Source of the DNA: Devosia marina
GTDB lineage: Bacteria; Pseudomonadota; Alphaproteobacteria; Rhizobiales; Devosiaceae
Reading direction: 5' to 3'
DNA: 64,000 nt
NCBI RefSeq assembly: GCF_009758415.1
Contig: NZ_WQRF01000001.1
Coordinates: 496,001 to 560,000 of the forward strand
Shown: positions 27,907 through 62,389 of the stretch, in pieces
How the letters are laid out: every line of letters starts with the position of its first letter
How positions within the stretch are numbered: position 1 is the stretch's first letter
The notes under the pieces: model-generated
What the model saw: only the letters and a program-made list of their open reading frames with translations
Told to the model about the DNA's origin: nothing
Databases searched by the model: none
Translations under genes and position numbers: made by a program

Positions 27907-27983
<77 letters not shown>

Positions 27984-48390: not shown

Positions 48391-49707
48391 CTACAACGAT
48401 AATACTCCGAGACGCGCAATTTCGTCCGTGAACTCAGTGATATACCTGCCATAGTGCGCTTCGATCATCTCCGTACTTGTGTCGTGAAGAGAGGCGACTA
48501 TTCGAATTGGAATGTTTTTGCGCAGACTTCGCACGATCGAACTGTGGCGTAGGCTGTACGGGATCGCTCCTGCTGGCGCGCCGGCCTTTTTGACCGTCGC
48601 CGCCCACATCTCGTCGAGTTGGTTCGGGTCAGTCCAGCGAACGCGCTTGTCGCGTTCCCAGCCGATTCCCTTGCCGCGTTTGAAGCCCCAGCGCTCAAGC
48701 AAAGGCGCGTCCGGGTCGCGGCCTGCGGCGGCCGGCGCCAGCAAGTCGATAATGGTTTGGTCGAGTGGAACCGCTGCCGGCGGCTTCGGTCGAGCGCGCC
48801 GGCCTTTCTTCGCGCCGGGCACCATCAGGCGCTTGGCACCGATCTGTAGGTCGACCACGTTAAGCCCCGCAGCCTGGTTGAACCGAGGACCAGTCGCCAG
48901 GACGGCGATCATGCGGCCGAAGTCACCTTCGGGATCGATCTCGGGATCTTGCGCGGCCCTGACAATGGCGAGCACCTGGGCATCGCTCAGGATCTGTTTG
49001 CGGGCCGTCTCGCCCAGCGGCAAAGCTCTCGTGCCGATTTTGATCTCGGCAACGACATGTGCGGGCAATTCGCGTCGATAGCGTTCGGCCGCACGGTTCA
49101 ACGCAGCGCGCAAGTCTGACGCCAGGCGGTTGAATGTTGCCCGGCTGATGATCGGCGTCTCGGCCTCGTCGGCGGCGCTGGTGCCCTCGATGGGCAGCTT
49201 GTCGCGCCAAGCATCAAAATGCGGTTCTCTCAACTTCGCCAGCGGCCGCGCGCTGAACACGCGATCGGCAAGAACGTGTTTGCGAAGTCGACCAGAGGCG
49301 TTCGCACCTTCTCGCGCCGATCGGCCGGTGCGGTAAATGACATATTCGCTGATGGCGGATTCGACGGTGGGCACCTTGCTTTGGCGTGCGCCCGCGGCAT
49401 CTTCGATCTCGGCGTGCTTCCGCTTTGCCCATTCCAGAGCCGACGTCACTGCCGATCGGAAGGGCAGGGCTCCGGCCTCGGCGCCGTCATCATCGGCAGC
49501 GGCTAGGCGCTCTTCCGTGCGCTTGCCATCGAAGACAATCTTGCCGATCCACACGCCGGGGCCGACACTTCTTCTGTAACCGAGGCTTACGCCGCCGCGC
49601 CCGCCGCCAATACCTTGCCAGTATGGGTTGCGCCGGGGCGCCAGTTTGGCTCGCTTCGATGGAGTGTCGATAAGGGAGGTTGGCTGCTTTCCCACAGATG
49701 TTCCCAC
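48391..49707 (-). CDS. int: tyrosine recombinase, integrase of the tRNA-Arg element
   Basis: A 438-residue phage integrase placed just inside the right attachment site. The N-terminal arm-binding part (GVSLGYRRSVGPGVWIGKIV) is followed by a core-binding domain and the catalytic domain: arginine in LATGPRFNQAAGLNV, lysine near MVPGAKKGRRARP, SLRHSSIVRSLR for the RHxxx box, and the nucleophile in EAHYGRYITEF. It reads inward from attR. It is the best candidate for the enzyme that integrated the element into the tRNA. Confidence 0.92.
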   Translation of the reverse strand: MGTSVGKQPTSLIDTPSKRAKLAPRRNPYWQGIGGGRGGVSLGYRRSVGPGVWIGKIVFDGKRTEERLAAADDDGAEAGALPFRSAVTSALEWAKRKHAEIEDAAGARQSKVPTVESAISEYVIYRTGRSAREGANASGRLRKHVLADRVFSARPLAKLREPHFDAWRDKLPIEGTSAADEAETPIISRATFNRLASDLRAALNRAAERYRRELPAHVVAEIKIGTRALPLGETARKQILSDAQVLAIVRAAQDPEIDPEGDFGRMIAVLATGPRFNQAAGLNVVDLQIGAKRLMVPGAKKGRRARPKPPAAVPLDQTIIDLLAPAAAGRDPDAPLLERWGFKRGKGIGWERDKRVRWTDPNQLDEMWAATVKKAGAPAGAIPYSLRHSSIVRSLRKNIPIRIVASLHDTSTEMIEAHYGRYITEFTDEIARLGVLSL

Positions 49708-49801: not shown

Positions 49802-49851
49802 CTGCACTCCGAAGGCAGAGGCCACAAGTTCGAATCTTGTCGGGTGCGCCA
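49802..49851 (+). repeat. attR, displaced 3' half of tRNA-Arg
   Basis: It matches 27934-27983 except at four positions. Two of the changes are compensatory in the T-stem (CAAG/CTTG in place of CAGG/CCTG), so the copy still folds as a tRNA arm and probably came in from another tRNA-Arg allele. One difference (A for C in the anticodon stem) is not compensated. Confidence 0.92.
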
Positions 49852-49982
49852 TCACTTCCCCTAAGTACTTGATGTAAAACATTAAGTTTGGGACAGGTTT
49901 TGGGACAACGCATCTCATCGAATCGGTTTGTGCCTTGCCAGAGTGTCGAGGACCTTTTCGCCACCAAGCGAAAGACCGACAC

Positions 49983-51137
49983 ATGCCGACCATCAAACTC
50001 GACGGCGAAAATTACATCTATGAACGCATTTCCGCCGATGGCCGCCTGACCTCCTACCAGGTCAAAATCCGGCGCAAAGGCTTCCCGCAGCACAATACCA
50101 GTTTCGATGACCTGGACGAGGCGCGCCGTTTTGTTCGGCAGGTGCTGGGCGATCAGGATCGCGGCCACAAGGTCGATCGGCTGGCTGGCCATCGCAACAC
50201 GGTCGGCGATGTGATCGACGGTGCAGTAAAGTCGCTCGAAGCAGGCAAGCGTCGTGTCAAGGGCGCGCAAAGTGAGCTTTACCGGCTCCGGGCCTTTCGC
50301 CGAAATAATTTGGTCCTCTGCTCGACCGCCCTTTCAGACGTGACAGAAGACCACTTCGAAGACTGGATCGTCGAACGCCTCGAGGAGGTGAAACCCAACA
50401 CGGTGAAACGCGATCTCCGCCTGCTCAAGCCAATCTTTGAGGCGGCCACCTGGCAATACGACCTGAGGCGCTCGCCGCTCGAGCGGGTTCGAGCCCCCTC
50501 GGCTATTGATGAGCGGATCCGGCGTATCAGCGAAGATGAGGAGGCCTTGCTGTTTGCCGAACTGGTCATGGCCGAAAATCCAATTGTGCCCTTGGCGGCC
50601 GAGTTTGCGCTCGAGACAGGCTGCCGCCGGAGCGAGCAGTTGCGCATCGAGTGGAAGGACTATGACCGGCGCGGCGGCACGGTGTGGTTGGCAGACGCGA
50701 AGAACGGCAGGGGTCGCCACATTCTGTTGTCAGAGCGCGCGGTTCAAATCCTGGAGGCGCTGCCCGGTCGCGCAGCGGGCGGCAAGATCTTCAAGATCTC
50801 CGGCAATGCCCTCAAGAAAGCCTTCGAATATGCCCGCGCACGCGCCGCTCGCCGGGCCCGGAGCATGGGCCGGGAGGACCTGATGTCGGTGGGGACGCTG
50901 CGTTGGCATGACTTCCGTCACGAGGCTATTTCACGCTGCTTCGATGCCGGCTGGACGAGTGAACAGGTCATGGATTTTTCCGGCCATGTCGATATCAAAT
51001 CGCTGCTCCGATACCGCCATCCCAAGGTCGACCAGAGTGTTGCGCGCCTGCGTGCGATGAAGGCTAACGGACAGCGCACCTTGCCGATGCCGGGTGTGAT
51101 CGAAGCCAGTGTGGTTGGGAACGACCCGAAATCCTGA
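49983..51137 (+). CDS. int: tyrosine recombinase (second integrase, outside attR)
   Basis: A 384-residue integrase. The N-terminal part is an arm-binding region (MPTIKLDGENYIYERISADG) and the catalytic domain is complete: ETGCRRSEQLRIEW, the lysine of ADAKNGRGRHI, WHDFRHEAISRCFDAG, FSGHVDIKSLLRYRHPK with the nucleophile. ATG 49983 is preferred to the frame start at 49935. It begins 131 bp beyond attR and points away from the first element, as the integrase of a neighbouring element would. Confidence 0.9.
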   Translation: MPTIKLDGENYIYERISADGRLTSYQVKIRRKGFPQHNTSFDDLDEARRFVRQVLGDQDRGHKVDRLAGHRNTVGDVIDGAVKSLEAGKRRVKGAQSELYRLRAFRRNNLVLCSTALSDVTEDHFEDWIVERLEEVKPNTVKRDLRLLKPIFEAATWQYDLRRSPLERVRAPSAIDERIRRISEDEEALLFAELVMAENPIVPLAAEFALETGCRRSEQLRIEWKDYDRRGGTVWLADAKNGRGRHILLSERAVQILEALPGRAAGGKIFKISGNALKKAFEYARARAARRARSMGREDLMSVGTLRWHDFRHEAISRCFDAGWTSEQVMDFSGHVDIKSLLRYRHPKVDQSVARLRAMKANGQRTLPMPGVIEASVVGNDPKS

Positions 51138-51160
51138 TGGCCGGACCGCCGAGTCTGGCA

Positions 51161-51207
51161 GGTAACACTTTTCCCGAGCCGAGAGGCGGTGCGGGAAAAG
51201 TGTTACC
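51161..51207. repeat. perfect 16-bp inverted repeat after the second integrase
   Basis: GGTAACACTTTTCCCG (51161-51176) and CGGGAAAAGTGTTACC (51192-51207) with a 15-nt spacer lie 23 bp after the integrase stop. Further GTTACC-like motifs follow at about 51212 and 51305. There is no T-run. It may be a recombinase or repressor site rather than a terminator. Confidence 0.7.
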
Positions 51208-51321
51208 GCGCGCGCAAGAGACGTTACCCGCTCCACCAGAAGGCCAACAGCGATTGTTCCTTGCCAGACCTTGAACGAGAAATTGGGCGACAAATTTCCG
51301 TCGAGTAACGGGTAAACACAG

Positions 51322-52260
51322 ATGGATAGAGTGGATGGCCTGGGAAATCTGGTGACCCGGCAGGACAGTACCGCAATCGAATATCTGCAACGCGTTGACA
51401 TGCTGATGCGTCGTGCCGGGGAGGCGATTGGTCGCCCTGCGACGCTGTTGGAAGCGATCAGCTATCTCGGCGGGCGGCACAACGAATACCGGCCAGCCAG
51501 CATCCGCAAATATTACGCGGCACTGGCAGTGGCAGTCGATGAGGCATTGGCGACTGGCGCTATCCTTCCGAAGCAGGAAGCCGCGTATCGTGACGCTCTC
51601 AAGGATCGGCCGCGTCCGCGGGCTAGAAGCGCCGAATCCCGGACGTCCGCAAAAAAGCGGAAGAGCGTCTCTATGACAGAGGTTAGAACGGTCTGCCGAT
51701 ATTTGTGGACACGCGGAAAGCCCGACGACAAGCTGCTCGTCCGCCTGATCAAGCATGGCGTTTTCCTTGGCCTGCGACCGTCTGAATACTCCGATGCCGA
51801 TCGGCAGGGGGATTTGTTGGTCGTGCGCACCCGTAAAACGACTAACGGACGCGGTCTGTGTGCGTTCAGGGAACTTGACCTTGTCGATATTGCGCCTGGC
51901 GAAGCGGCCTCCCTTGATCAGTTGATCGTGGATTTTGCGAGGGCAAGTTCTGGCGACCTGGAGAGACTGATCGATCGCCTTGGCGCACGCTTGCGGCGGG
52001 CGTGTCATCATGTCGGGCTGGCGCCATTTGCCCTCTATACGACGCGCCACCAGGCGATTGCCAATCTTAAGGCGGCCGGCAAGTCGGCGGCGGAAATTGC
52101 GGCAGTCGCCGGACACAAGTCACTCTATACGGCGGGCAAGGCCTATGCCGGTCGCCGGTCCGGCTGGAAAGCGGTCCCGACAGCAAAAGCCACCAGCGCC
52201 ATGCTGGCGAAATTCGAGGTACAACCGACGCCGCAAAGGCCGTGGTCTCCGAAAATCTAG
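51322..52260 (+). CDS. tyrosine recombinase-like protein, partly divergent active site
   Basis: A 312-residue recombinase-like protein. The first arginine is in FLGLRPSEYSDAD, the lysine in VRTRKTTNGRG, then YTTRHQAIANLKAAG, AVAGHKSLYTAGKAYAGRR with a possible nucleophile. In the RHxxR box the usual first histidine is tyrosine, so activity may be reduced. It follows the 16-bp inverted repeat by 114 bp and forms a recombinase pair with the gene at 49983. Confidence 0.72.
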   Translation: MDRVDGLGNLVTRQDSTAIEYLQRVDMLMRRAGEAIGRPATLLEAISYLGGRHNEYRPASIRKYYAALAVAVDEALATGAILPKQEAAYRDALKDRPRPRARSAESRTSAKKRKSVSMTEVRTVCRYLWTRGKPDDKLLVRLIKHGVFLGLRPSEYSDADRQGDLLVVRTRKTTNGRGLCAFRELDLVDIAPGEAASLDQLIVDFARASSGDLERLIDRLGARLRRACHHVGLAPFALYTTRHQAIANLKAAGKSAAEIAAVAGHKSLYTAGKAYAGRRSGWKAVPTAKATSAMLAKFEVQPTPQRPWSPKI

Positions 52261-52418
52261 CGGGTCAATTTGTGCTTTGCCAGTGATGGTGCGAAGGTGA
52301 CCACGTGCCCCTTGTGCCCCTCAAGACACTGTATGACGTTTCCAATGTGCTTGGCCTGGATACGGTCAACCGCGTCTGGGCCACTTATGATGATCGCCAA
52401 GGGTGTGATGCTGGTCGA

Positions 52419-52775
52419 TCACTCCGCCTTGCGCAGGGCCGATTTTGGTGAGGGCGTAAGCGATTTTCGACCGCGACCGGTGGGTAGCGGGTCGGAGAAT
52501 GTTGGCATCCGTTTTTGAGTTCCACGACCGACCCTGGCGTTCTTGGAAATCGCGCGATTTTGGTGGGAACGGTTGTTTCCGGGTGAAGTCTCTACCAACG
52601 GCGTAACCGCGGATGCGTGGATCCAGGCCTCAATGTCTTCGGGTCGGTACAACGCCTTGTCAGTGGGCTTGTAGTAACGCGGCCCCCGCCCTGTCGACGC
52701 CAACTTGGCCAAAGTGTGCTCCGAAATTGGGTAGCGCTCGGCCACCTGGCGGCGGGTGAGGTAGAGTTGGGTCAC
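52419..52775 (-). CDS. AlpA/HTH_17 family regulator
   Basis: A 118-residue protein. LYLTRRQVAERYPISEHTLA is a clear AlpA-type HTH, with the wing RGPRYYKPTDKALYRPEDIE. The last 60 residues are a basic, low-complexity tail. Probable excisionase or activator for the nearby recombinases. Confidence 0.75.
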   Translation of the reverse strand: MTQLYLTRRQVAERYPISEHTLAKLASTGRGPRYYKPTDKALYRPEDIEAWIHASAVTPLVETSPGNNRSHQNRAISKNARVGRGTQKRMPTFSDPLPTGRGRKSLTPSPKSALRKAE

Positions 52776-52917
52776 GGCTAGTCATCCGGTCAATGGTGAT
52801 CCTACGATCCGGCCAGATGACGAAAGTCACAAACGGTTTTGCTTTGTAGAATGTGATGGTTTTGGAACGCCCTTGGCAACGATACCTATCAGAGCCCAAA
52901 ACTGGATGTACGGGCCT

Positions 52918-53109
52918 ATGACGGACTGCCCACCATTTGCAAGCCATCAGTCAACAAAGCACGACGATCGCTATGACAAAGACTGGCCCTGGTATATCGG
53001 CCAGATTTCATTCTCGCTCGCCCCACGGTTTGCGGTCATGCTGGCAATCGAGCGAGCAAGAGTGATCGCATGCTGGCTAGACAGCAAGCTAGCACGCGAT
53101 CTCAATTAA
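52918..53109 (+). CDS. possible small protein in the 330-bp gap before the partition genes
   Basis: A 63-residue frame (MTDCPPFASHQSTKHDDRYD start; PRFAVMLAIERARVIACWL near the end) lies in the otherwise empty 52776-53105 stretch and converges on the RHH gene. The residues look protein-like, but the ribosome site is weak and no family is known. Confidence 0.25.
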   Translation: MTDCPPFASHQSTKHDDRYDKDWPWYIGQISFSLAPRFAVMLAIERARVIACWLDSKLARDLN

Positions 53110-53315
53110 TTATCGACCTGCAGCTTCGCGAGGAGGTCTCCCAGGGCTTCATCGAGAAGGCCCTGCAGGTTGGTGCGGCGGTCGAGCGCAAGGCGGTGCA
53201 GCATGTCGCGTTTCTCCCGAGAGAGCCGATAGCAGATCTGGACGCGTGCTTCACCTTCGTCAGCCAAGTCGGCGGCGCTGGCCGTTGCGCGCAGGGGAGG
53301 TTTCAGTGGAGACAC
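53106..53315 (-). CDS. small ribbon-helix-helix-type partner of ParA
   Basis: A 69-residue protein from a GTG at 53315 that shares one base with the parA stop (TAGTG). The sequence ARVQICYRLSREKRDMLHRL and TNLQGLLDEALGDLLAKL is the strand-helix-helix pattern of small RHH partition/repressor proteins such as ParG. It would bind a centromere-like site and ParA. The coupling to parA supports the pairing. Confidence 0.7.
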   Translation of the reverse strand: MSPLKPPLRATASAADLADEGEARVQICYRLSREKRDMLHRLALDRRTNLQGLLDEALGDLLAKLQVDN

Positions 53316-53959
53316 TAGTTGTTCCTTTCGCAAATCGCCGACCACAGACGTGCGTAGTCGGAGCGGGCCGGCGCATCGATTGGCAGGTCGGCGACGGTCA
53401 TTCCGCGGAATATGAGCTCCGGATAGATCAGCCGATGCGTGATCTGGTGGCGCCAGGGAGTGGCGCCGGCGGCCTTCAAGCGCTCGCGTGCGAGACGAAT
53501 GGTCGGGGGCGCCATACCATGACGCAATGGCGGCGCTGCGATGAGTGCCACGAGAGGCTTCGCGTGGGCGTGTTTCAAGAAGTCGACCCACTCGAGAGCC
53601 AACGTGAGATCAAACCTGAAAGGTCTTGCACAAACGATCGAAATTCCGGCGGCCTGGGCTATGGCGTGTGAGCCGCGATAGGGGGCAGGCGGATTGTCGA
53701 TGATCACCGCGTCATAGCGTAATTTGGCCCTACCCAGAAGCGTGGCAACCGCGCCCACTTCCGTGCTGTGAACGTTGAACGTCGGGTTCCTGCTCATGGT
53801 ATGAAATTCACTGGCCGAACGCTGCGGGTCGGCGTCGAGGACAACGGTGCGGCGGCCCTCGGCCGCCGCCAGGCCTGCGAGGGCAATTGCGGTCGACGTC
53901 TTGCCGGCACCGCCCTTACCCCAGAGCGCAAGCACGATAGAAGCGGCGGTTTTGGTCAT
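53315..53959 (-). CDS. parA: ParA-family partition ATPase
   Basis: A 214-residue Walker-type ATPase. The deviant Walker A is LWGKGGAGKTSTAIALA, followed by VVLDADPQRSASEF and VIIDNPPAPYRGSHA. The short length without an N-terminal HTH marks the small ParA/ParF class, which works with an RHH partner like the one encoded next. It suggests plasmid-like or excised-circle maintenance of this region. ATG 53959 is chosen because it directly precedes the P-loop strand. Confidence 0.88.
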   Translation of the reverse strand: MTKTAASIVLALWGKGGAGKTSTAIALAGLAAAEGRRTVVLDADPQRSASEFHTMSRNPTFNVHSTEVGAVATLLGRAKLRYDAVIIDNPPAPYRGSHAIAQAAGISIVCARPFRFDLTLALEWVDFLKHAHAKPLVALIAAPPLRHGMAPPTIRLARERLKAAGATPWRHQITHRLIYPELIFRGMTVADLPIDAPARSDYARLWSAICERNN

Positions 53960-54041
53960 AGTGCATCCCTTTCCCCCGCACTGTCGAAGCAAGCCTGGCA
54001 AGGAACAAATCGCGCCTGCGAAGGCAGGCAAGGAGCGCGAT

Positions 54042-54079
54042 TGCTATCAAGCGAGCTAGCTCGAATGCTCGCTTGATAG
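54042..54079. repeat. 13-bp inverted repeat upstream of parA, candidate parS/operator
   Basis: GCTATCAAGCGAG (54042-54054) and CTCGCTTGATAGC (54067-54079) are perfect complements. The palindrome CGAGCTAGCTCG (54051-54062) overlaps the left arm and spacer. The repeat lies 82 bp before the parA start, in the gap after the small conserved gene. It may be the partition site or an operator for ParA and RHH. Confidence 0.65.
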
Positions 54080-54130
54080 CGCCAGGCCCGCATCAAGGAG
54101 CATGCGCACCGGCGGCACGGGTCGCCCTCA

Positions 54131-54439
54131 CTAGCTTTTGTCGGGTATCTCCAGAGCCAGCGGCTCGGCCAGGCGATAGAGACGACTAACCGTGCGCGCC
54201 CAACGATGATGCGGGTCCATGACGAGGACGACGCTGGTCGTGCACCATCCTGGATCCAAAAGCGGATGCCCGCTGACGTTCCCCACAAGACAATGAAGGC
54301 CTGAGCCTACCTCGGACAGCACCCACTGAGATAGAACGGGCGCTGCATCAAGCTGGGCCCGCGTGGGGAGCTTTCCATTCTGGATTTGGATCGCGGCGCG
54401 CAGACCTTTCTGCAAGCTTGCTTTTGTCAATTTCGCCAT
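54131..54439 (-). CDS. conserved small protein (DUF6634-like)
   Basis: A 102-residue protein (LTKASLQKGLRAAIQIQNGK; GLHCLVGNVSGHPLLDPGW; TSVVLVMDPHHRWARTVSRL). The pattern resembles a small domain of unknown function found on alphaproteobacterial mobile elements, probably DUF6634, though that name is from memory. It begins 2 bp after the stop of the AAA+/M41 protease, so it is co-transcribed with module A and with parA downstream. Confidence 0.6.
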   Translation of the reverse strand: MAKLTKASLQKGLRAAIQIQNGKLPTRAQLDAAPVLSQWVLSEVGSGLHCLVGNVSGHPLLDPGWCTTSVVLVMDPHHRWARTVSRLYRLAEPLALEIPDKS

Positions 54440-54441
54440 CG

Positions 54442-56373
54442 CTACACCTGCTGACCGACCGTGGGCTCGGCGACAAGGCGGGACATCCGCTTCGTTTCCA
54501 GCTTCATTGCATCAAGCGGTCCAGCTCCAAGAAGTTTGATGACCTCGGCGCCTGACAGCACTTTGAATTCGGCGAGCCGTTCTGCCAGCATGATCGCGAG
54601 TTCGCGTTCCGCTTCCACCATACCCATCGCGCGGCGAAGGAGAATCGGCAGCTCGTTTGCGACTGCAGAAATCGTGACTGCGCTGGGTTTTCCTGTCGCG
54701 GCAGGGCCGAAGAGCAGGCTCTGTCCCAGCCCCTGCTTCTCATGCGCGTCAATCAGCAGCCGCGTGGCACCCTCAAGATCACTTGCAGCCCCGGAATTGG
54801 CACCACGACCCAGGACAAGATCGGCCGCTCGACCGCCAAGCATGATCGTCGCCATATCCCGGATGTGCGCCAAGGTCGGAACGAGGGTGGGGAAGGCGCT
54901 GCGAATGTGGCCACCTGTCGTGCCCTGCGGGACGATGGATATCAAGTCGACCTTATGACCGAGGCGATGGGCGATCAGTGCGTGGCCGGCCTCGTGGAGG
55001 GCTATGGCCTGGATATCGGATGGGAGGCGATTGTCTTCCGGGATGATCCGCGCGAGGACGTCGTCAATCGACAACGGCCGCCCCGCACCGCGCGCCGCAG
55101 CGCGGGCTTCACGCACCCAGCCCTCGACCATGGCGGGCGTTGCGCCAAGGCCGAGCTGCGCCAGGGGGAGGAGATCGGCCTCGGCCAGGTCTGATCCGAG
55201 GTAGAAACGGAAGACGTCCAGGATCTCCTCGCGAGTGTGGGGCGCTCGTACGGCGATGCGCTGCTGCAGCCGACCTGGACGGATCAGCGCCGCATCAAGA
55301 CGTTCAAAAAAGTTCGTTGCGCCGAGCAACAGGACACGTGTTCGTGACGCCCGCAACCGGTCGATCTCCGTTAGAAACAGTGTGATGATCGGCACCCACC
55401 AATCGCGGCCACGGGCATCCATAGTGGCGCGGTTTGGCAGCGCATCGAGTTCGTCCAGAAACGCGACCGCCGGTTCGGCGGCCATCGCACGGTCGATAAA
55501 AGCCTTGAGATTCTTGGCGACGCTGCCAAGGTTGCTATCTCCAGACGTGAACCACTCGCCAACCGACGTCGAAACGAAGGTCCAGCCGGAGCTTTCAGCG
55601 AGAGAGCGTGCCAGAAGCGTCTTGCCTGAGCCGGGCTCGCCCTCAAGCACGCCAAAGATGAGTGCGTCCGGCCCAAGGTACTTGGCCTTCACCGCCTCCA
55701 GCTCGGCCAGCGTCGAATCCGCCCACTGACGCAAATCCTCAGCCAGTGGCAAATCGGCCAAAGGCGGCACTGCGGAGGTGGTCTTTGCCTGCGGCGGCAG
55801 AATGGAGCGCTGAAGGTTGGCGACGCATTCCCTGGCGGAAATGCCGGGTCGAATGGCGGTGACAATGGCGGTTATGGGCAAAGCCGCCATGTCAGGGGTC
55901 ACACCCCGAGCCCTGCCGCCGGTCACACTCTTGATGACCTTGCGCAGCAATGCGGTCGTGGGCGGAGCAATAGTGACCACCATATCGGCCGCTGTGAGCA
56001 CTGCAGCGTCCAGGATGCCTTGAGGATCCTGCGAGATGAAGATGAGGCAGCGGCCCCGTTGAACCGCATGCAGCGCATTCGCGCCGACGTCACCTTCGGT
56101 CCTTTTGGCCGAGTTCCGTTCAGTGGCGGTGTAGACGGTAACCGTGCTGGCCAGCTTGACAGCCGGCCTCACGATGACTTCCACCCATTCGGCGTCAGGC
56201 ACCTTGAGGATGATGATACTCGATCCGCGAGTGATGAGGCCCTTGGCCTTGGCGCTGAGAGACTTGGTCAGCACCTCCTTGGCAAGGCAGTCCGGGGCGT
56301 TGGGCGCGGACTTGGCGAGGGCTTCGAGATCGGCGGGGGTGAAGGCTTCGTCGTCAATGTCATTTTCGGCCAT
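54442..56373 (-). CDS. soluble AAA+ ATPase with M41 (FtsH-like) zinc protease domain, module A
   Basis: A 643-residue ATP-dependent protease without membrane helices. Residues 1-220 are a private N-terminal domain. The AAA+ domain has Walker A GEPGSGKT near 245, Walker B FLDELDALPNR near 305, and an arginine-finger region LDAALIRPGRLQQRI near 365. The M41 domain has HEAGH near 460 and SGAASDLEGATRLL with the expected third zinc ligand. FtsH proteins carry two N-terminal transmembrane helices, which are absent here. ATG 56373 has GGAG upstream; ATG 56388 is the alternative. It follows the GIY-YIG gene on the same strand. Confidence 0.88.
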   Translation of the reverse strand: MAENDIDDEAFTPADLEALAKSAPNAPDCLAKEVLTKSLSAKAKGLITRGSSIIILKVPDAEWVEVIVRPAVKLASTVTVYTATERNSAKRTEGDVGANALHAVQRGRCLIFISQDPQGILDAAVLTAADMVVTIAPPTTALLRKVIKSVTGGRARGVTPDMAALPITAIVTAIRPGISARECVANLQRSILPPQAKTTSAVPPLADLPLAEDLRQWADSTLAELEAVKAKYLGPDALIFGVLEGEPGSGKTLLARSLAESSGWTFVSTSVGEWFTSGDSNLGSVAKNLKAFIDRAMAAEPAVAFLDELDALPNRATMDARGRDWWVPIITLFLTEIDRLRASRTRVLLLGATNFFERLDAALIRPGRLQQRIAVRAPHTREEILDVFRFYLGSDLAEADLLPLAQLGLGATPAMVEGWVREARAAARGAGRPLSIDDVLARIIPEDNRLPSDIQAIALHEAGHALIAHRLGHKVDLISIVPQGTTGGHIRSAFPTLVPTLAHIRDMATIMLGGRAADLVLGRGANSGAASDLEGATRLLIDAHEKQGLGQSLLFGPAATGKPSAVTISAVANELPILLRRAMGMVEAERELAIMLAERLAEFKVLSGAEVIKLLGAGPLDAMKLETKRMSRLVAEPTVGQQV

Positions 56374-56447
56374 AGGGGCACGCTCCATGAACCGGATGGC
56401 TCGCGCGGCGAGCGATCCGTCTGGTGAAGGATGGATTGGGTAGTGCC

Positions 56448-57722
56448 TTAAGCGGCGATCAGCGCGGGGGTCGCAGGATCAATGCCGCCGTCGGGGTCGA
56501 TAGCGACCCAGCTGTCGCGCGTACGGCCCTTGGAGCCGACACAGAACTGGGCCGCCCCACTGCCGCTGCTAAAGACGAGGTCGCGGGTCGTGACAAAGCT
56601 GCGGCCATCAGCTGAGAGCTCGAGCAGGCCGGCGTGCAGCCAGGCAGAGCGCAGGAAGCGGACACTCGAATTGGCGCTTGCCGCAGTCTCTATGCGAATG
56701 TCGGAGCCCTCGAGCACAATCCAGCGATTGTCGCTCTGACGAGCGGCCAGAGCAACAAGGCCGTTATCGAAGCAGAGCTCCATGCAGGTTCCGTCCGGCA
56801 TTTCGTTGAATGGACGCAGTGGGGCGACGCGACCGGCTTCCTGGCGCGGACCTGACAGTACCGCACGGGCCGCGCCATGGGTGAACATCACGCCGTGGTG
56901 GCGCAACGCCAGGCAGGCCCGGCCGAGAAAGCCGTCAAGCTCACTATAGCGCTGGGCATCGATAGCGGCGCCCATCGGCAGCTCGTTCATCACTGCGAAT
57001 GCGCGGGTCGCCTCAATGCGCGCGAAGAGCATCCGCTCGGCGGCGCGGGCGTCCTCATCGCAAAGTGTATCGTTCGTGTCAGTAATGACCACGATATGCT
57101 TGATGTCGCCGATCGGCTGCTGGCCGGAGGCGACACGGGTTCCCACGGAAGCGCTGGCGCCGACATAGACCTGACGCTCCCCAATCAGGGCATAGATCCC
57201 GGGACGATTGAGAGCACTAAGCTTGCCAAGACCGCGGCGCGCCTCACCCGCAGCCACAACAACCGTGGGAACAAGGGGCGAGGTCGCCAACTGTTCGATA
57301 CCGGTGGGCAGGGCGGCGTCGCTTGTCGTTGTGGAGATGGAGTTCACCTCAAGAGATTCGCAGCCAAAGGTACTCGGGCGGCGGGCCTCGGCCTCGGCGT
57401 CAACCGGGCCAGGCGTTTCCGGCGCGCGACGCACCACAGAATGCTGATCGATGACGTCGGTATAGTCGATCACCAGGATTTCCAGGTCGACCATCACCAA
57501 AACGGCGCCGGTAGGATCGGGATGATCGCCCAGTCCTTCGGCAATATCCCCAAGACTGGCACTGCCGGTCTCGTCAACAATGCGCAGGATAGTCAGCTGC
57601 GTAGGGCCCGCAACGAGCTCGTGCTGCACCAACCCGGCGACCAGCGCCGGCGGGGAATAGGGCATGAAAGAGGAATAGGACTTGCCCGACGCGTTTGCGT
57701 CGGTAGAAAAGGCATTAGCCAT
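56448..57722 (-). CDS. GIY-YIG nuclease-like protein with C-terminal DUF4357, module A
   Basis: A 424-residue protein. Residues 40-105 form a winged-helix-like domain (ILRIVDETGSASLGDIAEGL). A GIY-YIG domain follows near residue 175 (RPGIYALIGERQVYVGAS, an arginine in VGTRVASG and a glutamate in ARAAERMLFARI). The C-terminus resembles DUF4357 (NRWIVLEGSDIRIET and SGSGAAQFCVGSKGRTRDSW), a usual partner of GIY-YIG domains. ATG 57722 aligns with the start of the module B paralogue. The protease gene follows at 74 bp. A nuclease with sequence-specific targeting is likely; the target is unknown. Confidence 0.82.
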   Translation of the reverse strand: MANAFSTDANASGKSYSSFMPYSPPALVAGLVQHELVAGPTQLTILRIVDETGSASLGDIAEGLGDHPDPTGAVLVMVDLEILVIDYTDVIDQHSVVRRAPETPGPVDAEAEARRPSTFGCESLEVNSISTTTSDAALPTGIEQLATSPLVPTVVVAAGEARRGLGKLSALNRPGIYALIGERQVYVGASASVGTRVASGQQPIGDIKHIVVITDTNDTLCDEDARAAERMLFARIEATRAFAVMNELPMGAAIDAQRYSELDGFLGRACLALRHHGVMFTHGAARAVLSGPRQEAGRVAPLRPFNEMPDGTCMELCFDNGLVALAARQSDNRWIVLEGSDIRIETAASANSSVRFLRSAWLHAGLLELSADGRSFVTTRDLVFSSGSGAAQFCVGSKGRTRDSWVAIDPDGGIDPATPALIAA

Positions 57723-58257
57723 GTCATCACCTGTTAGAGCAGGAGGTTTCATGGTCAGGTCGACGGAAGGTTTGCAGACCTCCGTCGGCCGCTCCTTGCA
57801 GGGAACGTTCCGACCATATCGGGCCATTTGGCACCGACGCTGCAAAGATGAGCATCCCCGCCGATCTTGCAAGGTGATCCTCGATCGCGTGGTTAATGTC
57901 GGACGAATCTCGGCAGCAGGGATTCAAAGTTTTACGGTTCCGGCGTTATCGGTCATTTGCCGGATTTCCGGTCCTCTCAAAGCGTCCGAATCGCGCAAAA
58001 CCGGGCCCGTTCCAGGCAATTGGCCTGGCCATCCTCGAGGCGCGTTAACCAAGAAGAACAAAGCGCCAACATCGGCGTTGACAGCCAGAAGAACTTCGGC
58101 TCTCCTGATCAGCGTCGGTTCCATTCCGGGCCGATCCCGAGGCCGCGTCTCCGCATGAGACGCTGGTTCGCCCAGGCGAACCAGAGGCGGCTGACAGTGT
58201 GTTGGAGCACACTGCCAGCCTAACCAAGGGGCAACCTGCCGTAACAGGAGAAACCCA
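57723..58257. promoter_or_regulatory. divergent control region between the two nuclease-protease modules
   Basis: A 535-bp stretch without a gene between divergent starts. On the module A side an imperfect hairpin lies at 57758-57790. On the module B side three stem-loops follow one another at 58145-58220. It presumably carries both promoters and may encode a structured leader or small RNA. Confidence 0.5.
58145..58220 (+). other. three consecutive stem-loops upstream of the module B nuclease
   Basis: Stem 1 is GCGTCTC/GAGACGC (58145-58163, 5-nt loop). Stem 2 is CTGGTTCGCC/GGCGAACCAG (58163-58184, 2-nt loop as DNA). Stem 3 is a 13-bp arm with one mismatch (58189-58201 and 58208-58220). The last arm ends 37 bp before the ATG. 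The density of structure is unusual and suggests an RNA leader, an operator cluster or a recombination site. Confidence 0.55.
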
Positions 58258-59415
58258 ATGGCTGATGCCATTCTGGGCGCGGATGCGCCCGCCCGCAAGC
58301 TCGCTTCGAGCGATTTCCCCCACACCCGTCAGATGATGGCCCTCGAAGGGCTCGTCGCCGATCCGCATATTGATCTCGACAGCCAGATCGCCATCCTGGC
58401 CGCGATCGACGAGACCGGTTCGGCCAGTCTGGGCGATCTCATGGCCCTGCTGCCCGATCACCCCAGCCCCGGCCAGGCGATCATGGCGCTGATCCGCGAG
58501 GGCGCGCTCGTCATCACCTCTTCCGGTCTCATCGATGCCCATAGCCAGGTGGCGCGCCGGGTCAATCCGCCCTTGCGCCAGAAGGCATCGACCTCCGAGG
58601 CCCCCAAAAAGGGCGTGCAGCACCTCAAGGTCATTGCGCCTGAGCCCGATATCTTCTTTGCTTCGGGCATCGACCGCACCTATTTCGTCAAGGAGCCGCG
58701 GCTGCGGCAGAAGGGCATCTACCTCGCCCTTTATGGCAGCGCGGTCTATGTCGGCCGTTCCGGGGACACGGCCTGCCGCATTGCCTGGGGCGCGCATTTG
58801 AGGCGCAATGGCCTGCCCAACCGCATCATCGCCGCGGTCGACAAGCACCAGGTCCTCGATGACGCCCAGGCCCGCGTGGCCGAGCGTCTTGCCGCCCGCA
58901 TGGTCAATAAGCATCCCGGCCTTACACTCCTCAATAATGCCTTTCCGGCCGGCGATCGGCTCGCTTCCGGTCCTTATGCGGCCACGGACCGCTTCGTCAC
59001 CTCCTTTTTCGAACGCGTGGAACGGGCCGGGCTTCTCGAGCCCACCACCCCCAACTGCATGCCCACCGAACCGATCGAAGGGGCGCCAAACGAAGTGGAG
59101 GAGGACCAGCTCCTTACCATGGAAAGCTGCGGCGTCACCGCCAGGGCCAGGATTGAGGACGGCAAGTTCTGGGTTTTGGCCGGCAGCCAGGTCCGGCTCG
59201 ATCCGGTTCCCTCGGCCGGCAGCGCGGCGCTCAAGGATCGTCAGGACCTGCTCCACGATGGTGGCTTGGTCCATAAGGGCGATCATCTGGTCCTGACCGT
59301 GGATGTCGGTTTCGACACGCCATCGGGCGCCGCCAATTTCGTGGCCGGCTCAAGGGTCAAACCCGAGCATTGGCGGCCATTGGCCGAGGCACAGGGCATA
59401 GGTCCCAGGGCATAG
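58258..59415 (+). CDS. GIY-YIG nuclease-like protein with C-terminal DUF4357, module B
   Basis: A 385-residue paralogue of the module A protein. The winged-helix-like domain (residues 40-100) shares the ten residues DETGSASLGD. The GIY-YIG domain near residue 153 reads KGIYLALYGSAVYVGRSGD, with an arginine in TACRIAWG and a glutamate in ARVAERLAARM. The C-terminal part is DUF4357-like (GKFWVLAGSQVRLDP, TPSGAANFVAGSRVKPEHW). It is on the opposite strand to its paralogue and is followed at 122 bp by the second protease. Confidence 0.82.
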   Translation: MADAILGADAPARKLASSDFPHTRQMMALEGLVADPHIDLDSQIAILAAIDETGSASLGDLMALLPDHPSPGQAIMALIREGALVITSSGLIDAHSQVARRVNPPLRQKASTSEAPKKGVQHLKVIAPEPDIFFASGIDRTYFVKEPRLRQKGIYLALYGSAVYVGRSGDTACRIAWGAHLRRNGLPNRIIAAVDKHQVLDDAQARVAERLAARMVNKHPGLTLLNNAFPAGDRLASGPYAATDRFVTSFFERVERAGLLEPTTPNCMPTEPIEGAPNEVEEDQLLTMESCGVTARARIEDGKFWVLAGSQVRLDPVPSAGSAALKDRQDLLHDGGLVHKGDHLVLTVDVGFDTPSGAANFVAGSRVKPEHWRPLAEAQGIGPRA

Positions 59416-59537
59416 GCCTCAATACTTAGGTCCAAGACCTGAAGCCCGTGCTCTGACGGGTGGCATTGGCCACCCGCATCCTCCTTTTCACCATTCAAAA
59501 CCGCGGCGCGAGAAGCGCGTCCGCGAAAGGAACCCCC

Positions 59538-61502
59538 ATGTCCAATCTTGCCAATATGACGCTCGTCCTCGATGACGACGAGTTCGACACTGCTGAGGCG
59601 GCTGACGCGGCCGAGGCCAAGCCCATGCGACCGGATCGTGCTCTGGTCCGCGCCCTCCTTTCGGGCAGGACAGCACCCATCCGCAAAGCACTGCGCTCTG
59701 ACGTGGCTCAGGTCATCCAGATCATAGCGCCGACGCCTGCCTGGGCGCGCGCCATCAGCAAGGAAATCCAGCGCAGCCATCCTGAGGTGAAAACTCTGAG
59801 CCTCACTGAGACCAAGAAGGACCGGAATGACTGGGTCGTGCCGCAAGTGCTGTCGCAGCTGATCTCTGGAGTGCACAGCGTGTTCTGCACCACCAATGCC
59901 CCCGAAATCCTGCCCGCCGAGATCGAGGGAACGACTGATCTGCGCCTCGACCTGCCCGAGATCGATGCTGCCGTCGTCAAGCGCGCCATCCGTGACTTCT
60001 GCGGGCAACGTCCGGTTGGGCTTGGGGACGAAGATGTCGAACATCTCGACTTCTTCGATCTGGTCATGGCCATGCGTCCCGGCAGTTCGGCACGCGATTG
60101 CGTCAGGCGCATCAAGGCCCTGGCCGAGAAGCAGCGCAGGGCCAGGATCGTCATGCATCGCACGATTGGGTCGCGTGTCGAGGACCTTCCGCTGCCCATG
60201 CCGGTTCGGAGCTGGGCCATGACCTGCCTCGACGAACTTAATCTGGTCGCCGAGGGGTCTCTGCCGGCCAGTCAATTGCGCTTTGCCGTGCTCGAAGGGG
60301 CGCCGGGGACCGGTAAGACGCTTTTGGCCGAGGCCCTGGCCCGCTCTGCCGGGTGGCGCACGGTCTCGGCGACCATGGGCGACTGGTTCAACCGGAGCGA
60401 CGGGCATCTGGGAGGGGTCAGCAAGGCCATCGTCCGCTTTTTCGACACGCTGCTTGAGGACGACAAAACAATCGGCTTTATCGACGAGATCGACGGCCTG
60501 CCCGATCGCGCCAGTCTAGATGCGCGGGACCGGCAATGGTGGACCCCGGTCGTCAACCTTTTCCTCAAGCAGATCGACCGAATTCGCACCTCCGGCAGGC
60601 CGATCATGCTCATCGGCGCCACGAACTATTATTCGCGCCTCGACGCAGCGATGGTGCGCCCGGGGCGCCTGGAACAGCGTGTCCACATCCCCGTCCCCCA
60701 AACAGAGGACGAGCTCCGAGCCATCTTCGCGCACTACCTGGCCCCTGATATTCCGGCAAGCGAACTCGAACCGGTGGCCCGCCTCGCCCTCGGGGCCACG
60801 CCCGCCCTTATTGAGGCCTGGGTCAAACAGGCGCGCGGCCTGGCCCGGCATGATCAGCGGGTCCTGACGGTGGAAGATGTGATCGATGTGATTGCTCCGC
60901 CCGATGACCGTGCCCCCAACGAAATTCGGGCCGTCGCAATCCATGAAGCCGGCCATGCCTTTGTTGCGACGCGTTTGGGCATCGGGGTCAGGCATGTCTC
61001 GATCATTGCGCGTGGTGCCAGCGGCGGGTTCACGCAGACGGTGCCGCCAGGCGGGATCCTCAGCCGTCAACACCTCGAGGATCACGTCACGATCATGATG
61101 GCCGGACGTGCGGCCGATCTGATCCTGGGCGATATGGGTGCGCACTCCGGTGCGGCCATCGATATCGAAATGGCGACATCCCTTCTGACGCGGGGCTATT
61201 GCGAATGGGGGCTCTATGAAAGTTTGGGGCATCTCGACCCCAATAGCGAGGCGGCCTTCGATTTTGCCGACAGGGCGATCAAGCGTCTGCTGAACCGGGC
61301 CATCAAGCTCATCACCCAAAACCGTTCGCAGGTCCTGGCCCTCGCCACTGAGCTCCAGACGCGCCGCTTTCTCAAAGGCCATGAGATCAAGCCTATCCTT
61401 GATCATCACGCCGATGACCCGGCACCTACCAAGACCGCAGAACGCCCGTCCACTAGGCGCGGACGGAAGGCCGAAGCCAATGCGCAGGTGGCCCCGAAAT
61501 GA
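59538..61502 (+). CDS. soluble AAA+ ATPase with M41 (FtsH-like) zinc protease domain, module B
   Basis: A 654-residue paralogue of the module A protease. The N-terminal domain of about 240 residues shares the motif MRPGSSARDCVRRIK with its partner (IRPGISARECVANLQ in A). AAA+: GAPGTGKT near 254, FIDEIDGLPDR near 314, LDAAMVRPGRLEQRV near 368. M41: HEAGH near 469 and SGAAIDIEMATSLL for the third ligand. There are no membrane helices, unlike FtsH. A charged 40-residue tail ends the protein. Its stop overlaps the recombinase start (ATGA at 61499). ATG 59538 has AAAGGA upstream. Confidence 0.88.
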   Translation: MSNLANMTLVLDDDEFDTAEAADAAEAKPMRPDRALVRALLSGRTAPIRKALRSDVAQVIQIIAPTPAWARAISKEIQRSHPEVKTLSLTETKKDRNDWVVPQVLSQLISGVHSVFCTTNAPEILPAEIEGTTDLRLDLPEIDAAVVKRAIRDFCGQRPVGLGDEDVEHLDFFDLVMAMRPGSSARDCVRRIKALAEKQRRARIVMHRTIGSRVEDLPLPMPVRSWAMTCLDELNLVAEGSLPASQLRFAVLEGAPGTGKTLLAEALARSAGWRTVSATMGDWFNRSDGHLGGVSKAIVRFFDTLLEDDKTIGFIDEIDGLPDRASLDARDRQWWTPVVNLFLKQIDRIRTSGRPIMLIGATNYYSRLDAAMVRPGRLEQRVHIPVPQTEDELRAIFAHYLAPDIPASELEPVARLALGATPALIEAWVKQARGLARHDQRVLTVEDVIDVIAPPDDRAPNEIRAVAIHEAGHAFVATRLGIGVRHVSIIARGASGGFTQTVPPGGILSRQHLEDHVTIMMAGRAADLILGDMGAHSGAAIDIEMATSLLTRGYCEWGLYESLGHLDPNSEAAFDFADRAIKRLLNRAIKLITQNRSQVLALATELQTRRFLKGHEIKPILDHHADDPAPTKTAERPSTRRGRKAEANAQVAPK

Positions 61503-62389
61503 CCGCTCATTGGCTCAAGCACATCGATCGGCTCGATGGCGCCTTTTCCGATCATACGCTCCGGTCCTATCGGAGCGACTTCGGGCTCTTTGCCGCCTGG
61601 TGCCGCAAGCGCCGGGTGCCCTTCCTGCCAGCAACCAGCGAGACGGTTGCCGCTTATATCGAGACCGAGCGAATGCGCCTCAAGCCCGGGACGTTGAAAC
61701 GTCGCCTTGCTGCCATCCGCAAGCTCCATCACCTGGCAGAGGAGGGCGATCCTACCCGGGACGCCGATGTTGATCTGGCCATACGGCGCGCCAGCCGGGC
61801 CCAGCCATCCCGTCCCCAGCAGGCGCTGGGCATCACGGCCGAAAGGCGGGATCGCCTCCTCGCCCAATGCACCGATGATCTCATTGGTTTACGAGATAAG
61901 GTTCTAGTCTGCGTCGGTTTCGATACTTTGTGTCGCCGGGGCGAATTGGTGGCCTTGTCAGTCACCGATTTCACCAAACGCGATGATGGACGCTACAGCG
62001 TCCTCATTCGCCGGGCCAAGAACGATCCTGAAGGTGCCGGCCGAACTGCCCAACTCTCGACGCGCAGCAGCCAGCTCGTGGACGAATGGCTCGCCGCCAC
62101 CGGTGCGACCAGAGGGCCGCTGCTGCGCCCAGTCTATCGGAACCGGGCGCTGGCACTCTATCTCGAACCGCTCACCATTGGTCGCGTACTTAAGAAGCTG
62201 TCGAACCGGGCGGAGTTACAGATGGACGGACCATCCAAAGTGTCGGGCCATTCGCTCCGCGTCGGAGCCGCGCAGCAACTGGTGCTGAACGGGCGAGGCA
62301 TCCTCCAGGTCATGAGGGCGGGGGGATGGCGGTCGATGAACGTCGTGGCCCGCTATGTAGAGAATGTCGATCTGGACGTTTGGAGTTAG
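61499..62389 (+). CDS. tyrosine recombinase coupled to the module B protease
   Basis: A 296-residue XerC/D-like recombinase with an N-terminal core-binding domain (SDHTLRSYRSDFGLFAAWCR). Catalytic residues are present: arginine in FDTLCRRGELVAL, lysine in IRRAKNDPEGAG, HSLRVGAAQQL, tryptophan in GGWRSMNVV and the nucleophile in ARYVENVD. Its ATG lies within the protease stop, so both are made together. It may move the nuclease-protease cassette or resolve its circular form. Confidence 0.88.
   Translation: MTAHWLKHIDRLDGAFSDHTLRSYRSDFGLFAAWCRKRRVPFLPATSETVAAYIETERMRLKPGTLKRRLAAIRKLHHLAEEGDPTRDADVDLAIRRASRAQPSRPQQALGITAERRDRLLAQCTDDLIGLRDKVLVCVGFDTLCRRGELVALSVTDFTKRDDGRYSVLIRRAKNDPEGAGRTAQLSTRSSQLVDEWLAATGATRGPLLRPVYRNRALALYLEPLTIGRVLKKLSNRAELQMDGPSKVSGHSLRVGAAQQLVLNGRGILQVMRAGGWRSMNVVARYVENVDLDVWS

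Follow-up and report, generated by a model that had tools for sequence, protein, structure and literature searches.

Two back-to-back modules of a predicted GIY-YIG nuclease and a soluble AAA+-M41 protease in Devosia marina, with a leader that may specify an antisense hairpin RNA

A divergent gene locus of Devosia marina was analysed within a stretch of 64,000 nucleotides (nt), called the window, which covers positions 496,001-560,000 of contig 10 of a 3.86-Mb genome labelled G000. The locus carries two gene pairs, each coupling a winged-helix/GIY-YIG/DUF4357-like predicted nuclease (GIYa, GIYb) with a soluble AAA+-M41 protease (M41a, M41b). The sequences suggest two self-contained, separately mobile modules placed back to back, and a dedicated doubled system is not supported. 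Type A, with the genes GIY–M41–DUF6634–ParA–RHH, is carried by a tRNA-Arg integrase island; type B is GIY–M41–XerC. Gene content, the conservation of catalytic residues, modularity and the swapping of partners are all observed. On this basis the locus is read as two independent copies of a mobile effector module with a probable DNA-conflict function (restriction or element exclusion), perhaps restrained by its leader; the probability of this reading is put at roughly 45%.

Gene content and the two module types

Domain profile scans gave the gene order RHH-like protein, ParA, DUF6634, M41a and GIYa on the minus strand, and GIYb, M41b and XerC-like recombinase on the plus strand. An earlier reading made from the letters of the window alone (the sequence-only reading) had described the same partners on the two arms. 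The features are given below; wHTH denotes the winged helix-turn-helix, ORF an open reading frame, pLDDT the predicted local distance difference test score, L a locus and R2 the antisense hairpin model.

49802..49853, plus: partial copy of the 3' half of tRNA-Arg(CCG), edge of the type A island; matches tRNA-Arg 27907-27983 and also the tRNA-Arg where L088 and L092 carry their type A islands
49935..51137, plus: tyrosine integrase of the type A island; Phage_integrase 1.4e-16; collinear with L088
51322..52260, plus: weak integrase-like protein; Phage_integrase E 0.031, below cutoff; collinear with L088
52419..52775, minus: small gene, HTH/excisionase-like by eye only, without NCBIfam match; partly conserved in L088
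53106..53318, minus: RHH-like small protein; Antitox_RHH 20.1 bits, below cutoff; homologues adjoin ParA in other modules
53315..53959, minus: ParA-type partition ATPase; CbiA, AAA_31; ParA_partition 7.9e-27, below curated cutoff; start picked by inspection
54131..54439, minus: DUF6634 protein; PF20339 4e-14, above cutoff
54442..56388, minus: M41a, soluble AAA+-M41 protease; AAA 9.4e-24, Peptidase_M41 5e-12; HEAGH at 465
56448..57722, minus: GIYa, wHTH–GIY-YIG–DUF4357-like; PDC-S14 2.5e-20; wHTH 4.3e-23; start in the ORF list 57872
57723..57912, minus: leader A of GIYa; DNA homology to solitary type A modules extends to 57909-57913
57753..57790, plus: predicted leader hairpin H2 of module A, antisense strand; R2 49.0 bits, E 5e-06 (member of the model-building set); covariation
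57940..58257, plus: leader B of GIYb; DNA homology to L038 and L085 starts at 57940-57943
58189..58225, minus: predicted leader hairpin H2 of module B, antisense strand; R2 37.4 bits, E 0.00067 (member of the model-building set); covariation
58258..59415, plus: GIYb, wHTH–GIY-YIG–DUF4357-like; PDC-S14 1e-23; invariant Y155, Y164, R174, E209; structure model
59538..61502, plus: M41b, soluble AAA+-M41 protease; AAA 5.5e-22, Peptidase_M41 9.8e-20; model pLDDT 88.8; open frame from 59460
61499..62389, plus: XerC-like tyrosine recombinase; Phage_integrase 1e-13; 4-base overlap with M41b; type B homology stops at its stop codon

The stretch 27907-49853, from the tRNA-Arg to its partial copy, is prophage-like as judged from position and length only, with its own integrase at 48391-49707.

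The two GIY proteins share 32% identity. Y155, Y164, R174 and E209, which we take to be the GIY-YIG catalytic residues, are invariant in 32 aligned GIYb homologues, so the two Tyr, the Arg and the Glu of the active site are kept and the nuclease residues on which the sequence-only reading depended are conserved. The PADLOC profile PDC-S14 (PDLC04925) matches both proteins across their GIY and DUF4357 parts, with E values of 1e-23 for GIYb and 2.9e-20 for GIYa. In the GIYb structure model (pLDDT 75.9) the winged helix and the GIY part yielded middling structural matches, and Foldseek with this model gave no match at E <= 0.001. A search of 6753 ORFs revealed that the GIY winged helix resembles the C-terminal part of TnsA-like proteins; all wHTH matches up to E 1 fall in GIY, TnsA-like or TnsA clusters, those to TnsA-like proteins being weak (5.8e-05 to 0.8). 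One protein, P0038, joins a GIY-type N-terminus to a recombinase and is probably what a deletion has left of a type B module.

Between M41a and M41b the identity is 37%. Across 74 aligned M41b homologues no substitution is seen at the Walker A glycines and lysine, D316/E317, R374/R377, H469/E470/H473 or D542, and both window proteases keep the Walker, arginine and zinc residues and are predicted to be active. The hydropathy maxima are 1.56 and 1.22 for these proteases versus 2.26 for an FtsH-like protein of the same genome. The alignment and the hydropathy are in accordance with the earlier description of FtsH-like but membrane-free proteases with Walker, arginine and HEAGH residues. The M41b model has a mean pLDDT of 88.8 with an alpha/beta N-domain at 32-208, and FtsH chains top the structural comparison from residue 207 onward. 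The N-domain is probably a degenerate AAA domain, for which the evidence is moderate; hhalign placed it in register with AAA, yet at a probability of 11.5% and E 0.0026, and against p97 a single structural row spanned 37-453 with a root-mean-square deviation of 17.9.

The partners were counted for 39 wHTH-GIY genes in 37 fetched loci, the window pair included; loci L038-L077 had been picked by M41 similarity and L085-L104 by GIY similarity. Downstream of these genes lay M41 in 36, XerC in 13, DUF6634 in 13, and XerC with DUF6634 together in 0. GIY–M41 adjacency is biased in L038-L077 because those loci were chosen by M41 similarity; in the GIY-picked loci alone M41 lay downstream in 17/20. The three misses are two contig edges (L096, L100) and a decayed locus (L104). 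Each pair is therefore a wHTH/GIY-YIG-type predicted nuclease with a soluble AAA+-M41 protease, as profiles and invariant residues bear out, and the coupling holds across genomes.

DNA comparison separated the two modules. A solitary type A island in L088, likewise at a tRNA-Arg(CCG) gene, has the same DNA order as 49,802-57,913, and the type A island of L092 lies at a tRNA-Arg as well. The stretch 57,940-62,390 matches the solitary type B modules of L038 and L085 and ends with the stop codon of the recombinase. As homology to the solitary copies breaks at 57,913 and restarts at 57,940, the 536-bp intergenic region consists of two leaders.

The sequence-only reading had further suggested that the two copies are retained because they work together, for example as heteromeric proteases with two nucleases. 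The window contains an intact A|B locus, and a decayed trace of the same junction is seen in L100 of genome G005, where GIYa adjoins a 107-bp XerC end that is 80% identical. L063, L064 and L068 each contain a TnsA-like gene with a diverged M41 gene on either side, and the two sets of M41 genes form separate clades on the M41 tree, a conserved pairing that also favours a heteromer, at least in a weaker form. Against this, only the window has two wHTH-GIY genes among the 37 loci, each half is common alone, and the single pairs elsewhere carry a DUF6634(-ParA-RHH) or a XerC partner, never both, an outcome that the sequence-only reading had itself named as refuting. Because the A and B halves occur alone, the heteromeric double system was rejected as the main explanation and is considered very improbable. 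Taken together, the gene pairs and their coupling were confirmed, and the cooperation of the two copies was not.

The M41 tree showed the partner genes to be scattered, with XerC-linked proteases in several separate groups. The diverged M41 genes of L063, L064 and L068 have no TnsB nearby and are possibly a true pair. The M41 protease search (E up to 1e-45) matched 25/61 genomes, namely the own genome, 24/36 of the genus and 0/24 others of the order; the search with the GIY alignment (E up to 1e-8) matched 42/136 genomes of the family and 20/297 of the order. A third soluble M41 protease of the own genome (G000:C10:1578350-1580131; L003, L006) has Tn7-like genes of the TnsA/TnsB/TnsC/TniQ types and one small conserved gene as neighbours, and with this copy included 12/41 M41 loci are near TnsB-type (Mu-transpos_C), TniB- and TniQ-type genes. 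Plasmid homologues in named Alphaproteobacteria adjoin metallophosphoesterase, DUF6634 or Tns genes, and a Bosea homologue has annotated Tns genes alongside. No Tns profile match was found in the window. The module genes are often decayed, as frame breaks in L040, L050, L052, L055 and L104 indicate.

The leader hairpin and the operons that carry it

The leader is considered the most novel part of the locus. A hairpin-forming repeat precedes all 32 examinable ATG-start GIY genes, beginning 62-73 nt upstream (40 in L099, whose start is misassigned) and lying roughly 35-73 nt upstream of that codon. With the long MAFFT leader alignment RNAalifold gave only 4 pairs and no covariation, so the hairpin was realigned alone. 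Pairing then reached 82.2% of cells on the gene strand and 96.3% on the opposite strand. In the opposite-strand hairpin 7/10 pairs were changed on both sides (35 cells versus 7.8 in shuffles, which overstate significance as the sequences are related), and pairing dropped to 16-53% in slid controls. The first ten pairs of 31 leaders comprised 253 Watson-Crick cells, 1 sense G-T, 44 A-C, which become G-U on the other strand, and 12 others. The opposite strand folded better in 31/32 leaders and also in 21/22 hairpins outside the model set (45 G-U versus 2), these having been found with R2 itself and several being weak (E up to 0.41). For the opposite strand and the gene strand, respectively, the whole-leader z-scores were -5.42 and -4.68 in GIYb, and -4.74 and -2.78 in GIYa.

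Covariation so specific to one strand is difficult to account for unless an RNA is made, and it points to an undescribed regulatory RNA. The signal may instead come from a DNA palindrome that acts without RNA, but the mismatches are one-sided and become G-U on the opposite strand. An operator for the winged helix was also considered; it is weakened because the hairpin also stands before short GIY genes in which no wHTH was recognised (L066, L069, L059) and before operons without GIY. Against Rfam, with five sources searched, only tRNA reached the gathering score; the best match of the leader region alone was R1162 antisense RNA at E 0.49, which is chance level.

The hairpin model gave 39 matches at E < 0.01 in 63 loci, all upstream of a GIY gene and ten of them outside the model set; the best match in control and plasmid loci (504 kb) had E 0.49. 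Across 75 Devosia genomes there were 40 matches in 33 genomes, 30 of them at GIY genes or remnants. The other ten lie before a Lon-like AAA ATPase (8, followed in 7 by a CoiA-type protein within the stretch) or before M41–DUF6634 (2). Ten further, weaker matches comprise 4 before the ATPase–CoiA pair, 2 that are cut off and 4 without a recognised operon. Five of the loci counted here had gone into building the LonAAA profile and four into the CoiA profile; Pfam supports both independently. Five GIY–M41 loci of other families were also scanned; the match lay at the expected place in four (E 0.012, 0.029, 0.14, 0.41), and L136 gave none. In L156, of yet another family, the leader is accompanied by an upstream ORF, a GIY protein and a Lon-like ATPase of 623 residues in which no protease domain was recognised. 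At L131 (G000:C10:1092839) the own genome has one more leader, which is followed by genes for a Lon-like ATPase and a CoiA-type protein; the upstream ORF there has 25 codons.

The first 14 codons are conserved; in most non-GIY operons they form a free-standing upstream ORF of 25-51 codons and in Devosia GIY genes they are fused to the nuclease. Within them CAA at 39-41 is near-fixed (30, 32 and 32 of 33 non-redundant first-codon regions) and holds its place out of phase in L128, L129 and L099. On the other strand it reads TTG, and an A-rich stretch lies 16-17 nt further along, which is compatible with a candidate antisense promoter. TTAACC, which we take to resemble a CtrA half site, occurs 151-214 nt upstream in 38/45 leader entries (L099 counted twice) versus 9/1240 control windows of 320 nt; an example in the window is at 58040-58050. 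On the minus strand, a terminator-like hairpin with a T run lies at 58083-58064, downstream of the module B antisense hairpin; it is found also in L038 and is not conserved in most leaders.

In a tentative proposal, judged somewhat less likely than not, a leader common to Hyphomicrobiales families would encode an opposite-strand hairpin RNA that controls mix-and-match nuclease–AAA+ operons, the first 14 codons being conserved for holding the antisense promoter. In the operons of this putative regulon GIY-YIG would be joined either to AAA-M41 or to a Lon-like ATPase, a CoiA-type nuclease to a Lon-like ATPase, and M41 to DUF6634.

Function and rival explanations

In the proposed mechanism, a module would consist of a nuclease (winged helix, GIY-YIG core and DUF4357-like tail) and a membrane-free AAA+ zinc protease whose first AAA domain is probably inactive. 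Type A would have arrived on the tRNA-Arg integrase island with DUF6634 and ParA/RHH, and type B with its own XerC-like recombinase. The winged helix and the DUF4357-like part would locate DNA, the protease would unfold or degrade a protein bound there, and the nuclease would then cut, so that the module would act as a DNA-conflict effector. With less certainty, the structured leader may hold the module back through an antisense-strand hairpin RNA covering the ribosome-binding site. The DNA-conflict candidacy is due to the PDC-S14 matches and to a GIY-YIG/DUF4357 relative (L142:4696-5610) that sits between HsdS and HsdR in a type I restriction operon. L143 and L144 resemble the L142 operon as judged from gene lengths only, which are equal.

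Several results weigh against a leader-restrained conflict module. PADLOC on 110 sampled neighbours (of 375) gave 6 families with one member each, compared with 34 families for 110 control proteins (of 322), members being listed for 25 of the 34. There is therefore no defence-island signal, and a defence-island context was rejected, the neighbours not being enriched in known defence genes. The partners XerC, ParA and Tns fit mobility control equally. Further upstream, stems selected for the best score favour the strand of the gene (P0 22 to 6, P1 11 to 4; P3 14 to 13), so both leader strands may be structured. A consensus scan of 57,600-58,400 found no promoter. Intrinsic terminators for the antisense RNA were rejected as a conserved feature, as terminator-like sites follow the antisense hairpin in 7/44 leaders versus 117/2000 control windows.

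The chief rival of the conflict reading is that the protease acts on its own carrier element, remodelling or destroying the complexes for recombination, transposition or partition, and that the nuclease-winged-helix partner would bring it to the DNA. ClpX acts so on MuA. The co-operonic XerC (4-base overlap), ParA/RHH or TnsA-TnsB-TnsC-TniQ partners are consistent with this analogy, as is the weak similarity of the GIY winged helix to the TnsA-like C-terminal part; many modules, however, lack such partners (e.g. L087, L092-L095, L098), and the leader is shared by Lon-like ATPase–CoiA operons, which show no such genes over the stretches read. Mobility control of this kind is judged rather unlikely. 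A stability module, by analogy with type I toxin–antitoxin or plasmid addiction systems, would make the nuclease or protease harmful unless a labile antisense RNA is made. The predicted hairpin RNA opposite the start region and the frequent decay of the genes agree with it, but the predicted RNA has neither a consensus promoter nor a conserved terminator and the operons are large for such systems. This explanation is judged improbable.

If the conflict reading is true, the known effectors of mobile elements would be joined by a nuclease that is coupled with a soluble AAA+ zinc protease. If the leader proposal also holds, unrelated nuclease–AAA+ operons would share one leader RNA, giving a new class of regulatory RNA and a regulon of conflict effectors. 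The regulation can be tested directly, the question being whether an antisense RNA silences the conflict genes, and the leader model offers a means of detecting, by sequence, more effector operons that have gone unrecognised.

Comparison with known systems

No description of the GIY–M41 module was found in the literature searched, in accordance with the earlier statement that no such system is known to be described; no paper on DUF6634 was found there either. The window proteases resemble FtsH in having AAA and M41 domains with HExxH and a third ligand; they differ in lacking a transmembrane segment, in having an N-domain of another type and in scoring 120.7 and 126.3 on the FtsH model, whose cutoff is 600. 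With Tn7-like transposons (TnsABC-TniQ) the modules share the weakly similar winged helix and the neighbourhood of 12/41 related M41 loci, whereas the window locus has no Tns genes.

The PADLOC candidate PDC-S14, presumably listed as a single gene judging by its name, covers the GIY and DUF4357 parts of both GIY proteins; these add a winged helix and an obligate-looking M41 neighbour (36/39), which argues for a pair. IetAS is made up of an AAA ATPase and a subtilisin-like protease. The window AAA domain is related to it (PADLOC IetA 8.9e-18) and the logic of ATPase plus protease is alike, but the window protease is an M41 domain fused to AAA, a nuclease partner is added, and no S8 protease occurs among the ten locus proteins scanned. 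Antisense control of plasmid replication and of type I toxin–antitoxin systems offers the likeness of a predicted structured RNA opposite the ribosome-binding site, whereas the leader of the window precedes nuclease–AAA+ operons.

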